Below are positions 29,338 through 32,563 of a stretch of 64,000 nt of DNA, in pieces. A model generated the notes under the pieces. It did not search any database. It was not told where the DNA came from and saw nothing but the letters and a program-made list of their open reading frames with translations. The stretch comes from Serpentinicella alkaliphila (GTDB lineage Bacteria > Bacillota > Clostridia > Peptostreptococcales > Natronincolaceae), in NCBI RefSeq assembly GCF_018141405.1, contig NZ_CP058648.1, positions 3,002,502 through 3,066,501 on the forward strand. The letters run 5' to 3'. The position numbers were made by a program, and so were the translations under genes. Position 1 is the stretch's first letter; each line of letters starts with the position of its first letter.

Positions 29338-29368
29338 TAATGCCCCTTATATTAAGGGGCATTATATT
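29338..29368. terminator. Terminator between plsC and the SOS-linked small gene
   Basis: Hairpin AATGCCCCTTA-TAT-TAAGGGGCATT, followed by T-rich DNA on the plus strand. Confidence 0.9.
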
Positions 29369-29625
29369 TTAAACAAAATCCATTTGCACTTGTCTAACTC
29401 ATATTTTAATTCGTATCTTTTTTCAACCCCATTAATAACACTTTGACATTTATACACAAAAGCTTGAATACCTGCAATATTTGTTTTTCCTCTTTCAATA
29501 ACATGATCTATTTTTATAATATTTGAAATATCATCCTGCTCTTTAATTTTGAATTTTAGTGGTCTAGGTATTCCTTCCTCCGAAAACCACGCTACCATTT
29601 CAATGGGTTTAGCTACAATTTTCAT
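29362..29625 (-). CDS. Hypothetical 87-residue protein in an SOS-type operon
   Basis: Start ATG 29625 (MKIVAKPIEMVAWFSEEGIP); a TTG four codons earlier would overlap the TAGGA ribosome site. The sequence alternates short strands, with two cysteines (VYKCQS and DKCKW), and looks like a small beta-rich cytosolic protein. It begins 14 bases after the 24-residue frame at 29640-29714, and both lie downstream of a promoter with a LexA box. I recall similar unnamed proteins in clostridia, but no function. Context suggests a DNA-damage role. Confidence 0.72.
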   Translation of the reverse strand: MKIVAKPIEMVAWFSEEGIPRPLKFKIKEQDDISNIIKIDHVIERGKTNIAGIQAFVYKCQSVINGVEKRYELKYELDKCKWILFKI

Positions 29626-29639
29626 AATAAAAATCAATC

Positions 29640-29714
29640 CTATCTAATTGTTGATAAGTTTTTTAAATAGTCTCTTAAATCTTTAACTTTACCGGAAAAA
29701 AAGAAAATCTTCAT
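29640..29714 (-). CDS. 24-residue SOS-type micro-ORF, MciZ-like pattern
   Basis: ATG 29714 follows a near-perfect ribosome site (AGGAGGAG) and lies about 40 bases downstream of a LexA-boxed promoter. The peptide begins MKIFFFSGKVKDLRDYLKNL and has four more residues. Its GKxxDLRxxLK pattern resembles the GKAWEIRAKLK part of Bacillus MciZ (40 residues), an FtsZ-blocking peptide. That likeness is short and could be chance. It could equally be a leader peptide for the 87-residue gene. Confidence 0.6.
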   Translation of the reverse strand: MKIFFFSGKVKDLRDYLKNLSTIR

Positions 29715-29754
29715 GTTTCTCCTCCTCGTAATAATAAAATTTATTCATGCTTTA

Positions 29755-29783
29755 ATTTTAACAGAACACATGTTCTGTGTAAA
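29755..29783 (-). promoter_or_regulatory. LexA-controlled promoter (SOS box)
   Basis: On the minus strand TTTACA (-35, 29778-29783) and TAAAAT (-10, 29755-29760) are separated by exactly 17 bases. That spacer contains GAACATGTGTTC (29764-29775), a perfect palindrome of the GAAC-N4-GTTC LexA box. LexA bound there would block the polymerase. The first genes downstream are the 24- and 87-residue frames. Confidence 0.85.
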
Positions 29784-29876: not shown

Positions 29877-29960
29877 TTATATATATTTTTCAATAGCATC
29901 CTTCGATATATTCCCTGTACTACAAGCAAAGTAGCCATCACTTCAAAATGTTTTCTTCAT
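29877..29960 (-). pseudogene. IS200 TnpA C-terminal remnant
   Basis: The minus-strand frame reads KKTF, a stop, then SDGYFACSTGNISKDAIEKYI, matching the end of IS200/IS605 Y1 transposases (normally KTFWSDGYF). The tryptophan codon has become TGA. The catalytic tyrosine and HUH parts are absent. Confidence 0.7.
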
Positions 29961-30313
29961 TTCTTTTTCTGTTGTCAAATCTGGGTTTTCTATATCTCAG
30001 CCTTTGTCTTCTAATCCGTCTATATTGTAATTTTTCAGTAATTCTATTACTAATACCTTCTAGTAACTTAACTTCGCCATATATTAATTCTTTTTTTTCT
30101 GTCGTTGCACTAAAACCAATATTCAAGTACCTAGAATCAATACCAAGGGTTATATCTTGCTTGGTTTCACCTGTAGCAATAAGCAACTGAATAGTAAAGG
30201 GCTTAACTGTTATTACTTTTGCTTTGCCATCTTTGAGTAATTTCCTAGCTTTTTGTGCAATAGTCCTCCTTTCAGAGTAGGTTTACTTCGCCAATGTTAT
30301 CTAAGGTTTGCAT
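29938..30313 (-). pseudogene. IscB-type (RRXRR) OMEGA nuclease, N-terminal fragment
   Basis: Readable parts: KARKLLKDGKAKVI and PFTIQL (PLMP-like N-terminal domain), TLGIDSRYLNIGFSA (RuvC-I with the catalytic Asp), and the arginine bridge helix RRIRRQRLRYRKPRFDNR. An indel near 30285 separates the N-terminal MQTLDNIGEVNL from the rest. The HNH and later RuvC motifs are gone, and the fragment runs directly into a TnpA C-terminal remnant. It is an IS200/IS605-group relic, not functional. Confidence 0.8.
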
Positions 30314-32469: not shown

Positions 32470-32503
32470 CACATAAACGTGCTTTTTATCAAACATATGT
32501 TCG
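32470..32503 (-). promoter_or_regulatory. LexA box and promoter of the radical-SAM repair operon
   Basis: Minus strand CGAACATATGTTTG (32490-32503) fits the Gram-positive SOS consensus CGAACRNRYGTTYG exactly. It overlaps a possible -35 TTGATA, and TATAAT lies 18 bases further downstream, just left of 32470. Confidence 0.85.
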
Positions 32504-32534: not shown

Positions 32535-32563
32535 TTGCATAAAAAAATTATAACGACTATAAT
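32535..32563 (+). promoter_or_regulatory. Sigma-A-type promoter of the DUF368 gene
   Basis: TTGCAT (32535-32540), 17-base spacer, TATAAT (32558-32563), about 50 bases before the DUF368 ATG. It lies clear of the LexA box, so the box should serve only the divergent repair operon. Confidence 0.75.

Follow-up and report, generated by a model that had tools for sequence, protein, structure and literature searches.

A frame of 24 codons, located within the stretch of 64,000 nucleotides analysed here (the window), is a real gene and belongs to a new, conserved family of microproteins of 22 to 39 residues that has been missed by annotation. Judged by its homology to MciZ, the product is quite probably an SOS-controlled, MciZ-related microprotein that pauses division through FtsZ. 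It is probably the means by which these bacteria stop dividing during DNA repair.

The features of the locus are compiled in Table 1. The initial annotation had described a TTTACA-17-TAAAAT promoter with CAGAACATGTGTTCTG filling the spacer, and on the minus strand this arrangement is exact in every base. The ribosome site, the 24-codon frame and the 87-codon gene, which follows after a gap of 14 nt, were likewise all found again where it had placed them. With its core GAACATGTGTTC at 29775-29764, the palindrome is the sole exact match to GAACNNNNGTTC in the window. Just upstream of the operon a remnant of an IscB/RRXRR-type nuclease gene is located (29941-30186, minus strand).

Table 1. Promoter elements, predicted operator and genes of the microprotein operon in the window.
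Feature	Positions	Strand	Basis
-35 hexamer TTTACA	29778..29783	(-)	read from sequence; TTTACA-17-TATAAT layout common to 28 homologous genes
Promoter spacer, 17 nt	29777-29761	(-)	read from sequence
Predicted LexA operator CAGAACATGTGTTCTG, palindrome in the 17-bp spacer	29762..29777	(-)	position conserved in homologues
-10 hexamer TAAAAT	29755..29760	(-)	read from sequence
Ribosome binding site GAGGAGGAG	29719..29727	(-)	read from sequence
24-codon gene of the putative SOS microprotein (MciZ-type), product MKIFFFSGKVKDLRDYLKNLSTIR	29640..29714	(-)	homologues, selection, relation to MciZ
87-codon gene, second in the operon	29362..29625 (ATG at 29625)	(-)	sequence; homologues

Conservation among relatives had been named in the initial annotation as a point on which its reading could fail. 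In tblastn searches with the 24-mer, most family genomes gave a match that begins at residue 1, and the better matches share 55-76% identity with it. With a profile (A1), members are detected in 19 of the 20 genomes of the family as well as in at least two more families of the order (f6, f7); a class-wide search with this first profile gave no convincing member beyond the order. The sequences follow the rough consensus MK.F.F.G[KT]VK[DE]LR.YLK.W, and start codon and ribosome binding site are kept among them. Arg14 is nearly invariant, and the copy in the window carries Leu where other members have a near-invariant Trp20. Changes between close pairs fall mainly on third positions (pS 0.26-0.72, pN 0.00-0.09), and pN is lower than pS in 665 of 666 pairs. 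No bias of that sort is seen in the other two reading frames. The frame is under strong purifying selection and is a real gene. For one short member an AlphaFold model shows a helix alone, comprising residues 10-23, at modest confidence; Pfam and NCBIfam scans of single proteins of the window gave nothing useful. Most homologues occur at loci other than the type found in the window. Beyond what the initial annotation had seen, it is the micro-ORF that is conserved as a unit, in most cases apart from the 87-codon gene.

The second point on which the initial annotation could have failed was the presence of a LexA box in front of the orthologous genes. Of 38 copies, 28 have such a box between TTTACA/TATAAT-type promoter hexamers, within a spacer of 17 bp, compared to a background of 3.1% of random 160-nt stretches. 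A second operator lies downstream in 15 of the 38, and all 19 family genomes that have the microprotein contain at least one boxed copy. Ten copies have no box: six of these are mostly of the prophage type, and the four chromosomal ones follow a DUF368-type gene, with a boxed paralogue present in the same genomes. In the genome of the window the bare 12-mer occurs at 25 sites, compared to 21 for the reversed pattern, and is not enriched. Since the box by itself could be due to chance, the case has to rest on conservation; the placement of the box is not a chance result. The same genome encodes lexA and shows boxes of the same type before lexA, recA, uvrB, ruvC and a Y-family polymerase gene, as well as before a mutS2-like gene (named from its sequence only). 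Operator motifs in use for clostridia are GAACnnnnGTTC and GAACnnnnGTTT (PMC4234289). On both points the initial annotation stands. Taken together, the operators support SOS control of the microprotein, from which we infer binding by LexA and induction by DNA damage.

Further LexA-like boxes were observed in this genome. One of them, GAACATATGTTT at 32491-32502, lies upstream of a putative DNA-repair pair (TIGR03916/TIGR03915, 30398-32430, minus strand) and suggests that this pair is probably SOS-controlled as well; a DUF368-type gene starts at 32535 on the other side of the box. Outside the window, GAACTCTTGTTC at G000:C1:216654 is found 59 bp upstream of the gene of a 60-aa Spo0E-like protein (L198, G000:C1:215600-217800; PF09388, E 2.7e-11). 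According to this arrangement, DNA damage could block sporulation. In B. subtilis DNA damage blocks sporulation by another route, which involves Sda.

The resemblance of the GKxxDLRxxLK pattern to MciZ, which had first been noticed in the single peptide, holds as homology in profile-profile comparison and in reciprocal genome scans. When 19 members were scanned without bias against the whole of Pfam, six of them matched MciZ (PF13072; best E 0.022), which makes it one of the two models with the most member matches, the other having an equal count. Comparison of the microprotein profile with that of MciZ by hhalign gave 94% probability (E 1.1e-7) and a score of 32.8, whereas none of 300 column-shuffled controls scored above 14.7; without the two most similar MciZ sequences, which might act as a bridge, the score was 29.7. 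The MciZ relatives used were gathered by the Pfam model alone. When about 3000 background short ORFs were ranked together with the family by the MciZ profile, nearly all microproteins came out on top, and the highest-ranked background frames turned out to be further members of the family. A clostridial MciZ profile built from six sequences recovers the B. subtilis MciZ of 2MRW (E 5e-8) and 4U39 (E 2e-7), and its sole match in a scan of the whole genome of the window is the 24-codon frame (E 1.7e-4). In the opposite direction, the microprotein profile recovers full-length MciZ genes in the phylum with E between 1.7e-7 and 1.7e-5. The matches in both scan directions support the relation both ways and, with it, a common ancestry of the two families. 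When the PDB was searched with the microprotein profile, MciZ was not recovered, and the matches were only short motifs in unrelated proteins, e.g. KVKDLRDYL; because of this result, the shuffled controls and the reciprocal whole-genome scans were applied.

The microproteins conserve a strand-G-[KT]-helix segment, which can be aligned to MciZ and contains the G, R and L residues; the C-terminal segment of the approximately 40-aa MciZ is absent (alignments A2, A3). Arg14 aligns with Arg20 of MciZ, presumably a residue whose change abolishes MciZ activity. In addition to tiny size and matches in both directions, the two families (MciZ: PF13072; PDB 4U39/2MRW) share a strand, a G-K/T step and a helix with [DE][LI]RxxL. 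They differ in length and in control: most microproteins have a LexA/sigma-A promoter and not the mother-cell (sigma-E) expression of MciZ. The sequence CATAnnnTA is found within 80 nt upstream of nine of 15 MciZ relatives, where it looks like a sporulation promoter, in contrast to one of 38 microproteins and a background of 2.1%. For B. subtilis MciZ, control by sigma-E has been reported (PMC7430163), and the protein caps or sequesters FtsZ at the FtsZ C-terminal face (PMC7430163, PMC11938149). No family genome passes the Pfam cut-off for MciZ (22.2 bits), and PF13072 used alone there gives noise. With scores below the cut-off, the missing C-terminal part and the different control, the family is not a member of Pfam MciZ. 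The data support a reading that goes further than the initial annotation, namely a shortened MciZ that has SOS in place of sporulation control and is also phage-borne. One genome harbours a full-length MciZ relative (L170, G002:C1:237068-237184) as well as a LexA-boxed microprotein, and the two forms can hence coexist.

The 87-aa protein encoded by the second gene matched no Pfam or NCBIfam family. Its predicted structure is all-beta (pLDDT 87), and comparison of the model with the PDB revealed no significant match. Most often its relatives come immediately after a Y-family polymerase gene, recognised by a product ending in GGVxxDYPMMSSIL, or after a LexA box of their own. Tied to these polymerase genes across the order, the 87-aa family looks like an unnamed translesion accessory protein. 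It partners the microprotein gene in two genera; in the second of these (L126) a frameshifted copy of the 87-aa gene comes after that of the microprotein, with a WYL-like gene behind it. At two further loci (L056, L128) the next gene encodes an 81-aa protein consisting of the LexA DNA-binding domain only (E 8e-10 and 1.5e-7), with a YolD/WYL-like protein also downstream. These 81-aa proteins are possibly regulators that compete for SOS operators. In most genomes the homologue stands alone or before genes other than the 87-codon one. Overall, the loci seem to be SOS operons that vary in content and have the microprotein in common.

Phage or prophage-like copies were found at five loci (L167, L168, L165, L125 and L132), several of them near recT/exonuclease genes; at L167, recT and an exonuclease gene follow downstream of the copy at a distance of a few genes. 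No protein match of any credibility came from collections of phages and plasmids, and PHROGs contains no family for the phage-type copies.

This distribution also bears on alternative readings of the frame. Its shortness, its strong ribosome binding site and its position 14 nt ahead of the 87-codon gene would suit a leader peptide, the translation of which couples or attenuates expression of that gene. We consider this very improbable, as most genomes have the homologue without the 87-codon gene behind it and the conservation is at the amino-acid level. Even less credit, close to none, can be given to a chance frame behind a true LexA promoter that serves the 87-codon gene alone. The lack of enrichment of the bare 12-mer could be taken in its favour, but conservation, selection and the profile matches contradict it. 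Both readings were rejected because of the conservation. In size and LexA control the microprotein is similar to TisB, which raises the possibility that it is a membrane toxin induced by SOS, of the same kind as TisB and DinQ. The sequences, however, are charged and amphipathic without a hydrophobic stretch of membrane length, and a toxin of this kind is about as improbable as a leader peptide.

Alternatively, the microprotein might be conserved, SOS-controlled and of MciZ ancestry but have acquired a new target, e.g. a sporulation kinase, DnaA or the translesion polymerase, and pause another step of the cell cycle. The missing C-terminal part of MciZ would be compatible with such a change, as would the role of the operon partners in translesion repair, and the boxed Spo0E-like gene in the same genome indicates that SOS may brake sporulation too. 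On the other hand, what has been conserved is just the segment that aligns with MciZ. A new target is unlikely on balance, yet clearly more probable than the toxin or the leader peptide.

For the preferred reading, an inhibitor of division that acts on FtsZ, the following course of events can be proposed. The family would descend from MciZ or share a common ancestor with it, and LexA bound in the promoter spacer would keep the gene off. Upon DNA damage, active RecA would trigger self-cleavage of LexA, and the microprotein would be made together with its translesion-associated partner. By homology to MciZ, the N-terminal strand and the GKxx[DE]LRxxLK helix are expected to attach to FtsZ at its C-terminal polymerisation face (plus end). 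Capped or sequestered FtsZ subunits would then lead to disassembly of the Z ring, and division would be paused until repair is completed.

Small LexA-controlled inhibitors that stop division in the SOS response are SulA of E. coli, YneA of B. subtilis and SosA of S. aureus. To our knowledge, none of the inhibitors of these types carries the microprotein motif. In contrast to the microprotein, SulA is a folded domain of more than 100 aa, and YneA and SosA are membrane proteins. No yneA-like gene was seen beside lexA in the genome of the window; the neighbours of lexA are tyrosine-recombinase-like and transposase-like genes, as judged from their sequences, and the microprotein gene does not occupy the YneA/SosA-type position beside lexA. 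Tiny phage-borne inhibitors of FtsZ are represented by T7 Gp0.4 and Kil. The kil gene of phage lambda lies in an early region comparable to the setting of the phage microproteins, whose copies are found in the early/recombination region; the likeness is one of gene setting. As for the proteins themselves, SulA acts on the C-terminal face of FtsZ (PMC11938149) and lambda Kil is a phage inhibitor of FtsZ (PMC3961180). With some caution we favour the wider proposal that a large group of clostridia inhibits division in the SOS response by means of this microprotein. MciZ, a sporulation regulator of FtsZ, would have been cut to its FtsZ-binding core, brought under the control of LexA with frequently two operators, duplicated into two subtypes and exchanged with phages, which would use it as a Kil-like early protein.

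In the literature searched, the way in which clostridia halt division under DNA damage is not established, and the LexA regulon that has been published for C. difficile from in silico work contains no mention of division. A link between MciZ and LexA was not apparent in the titles and abstracts covered by this search. The family of 22-39 residue proteins missed by annotation would give a directly testable answer to the question of how clostridia stop dividing. If the proposal is true, one FtsZ-capping element would be wired to sporulation, SOS and phages, and the microprotein would provide a minimal peptide for the design of FtsZ-directed inhibitors.
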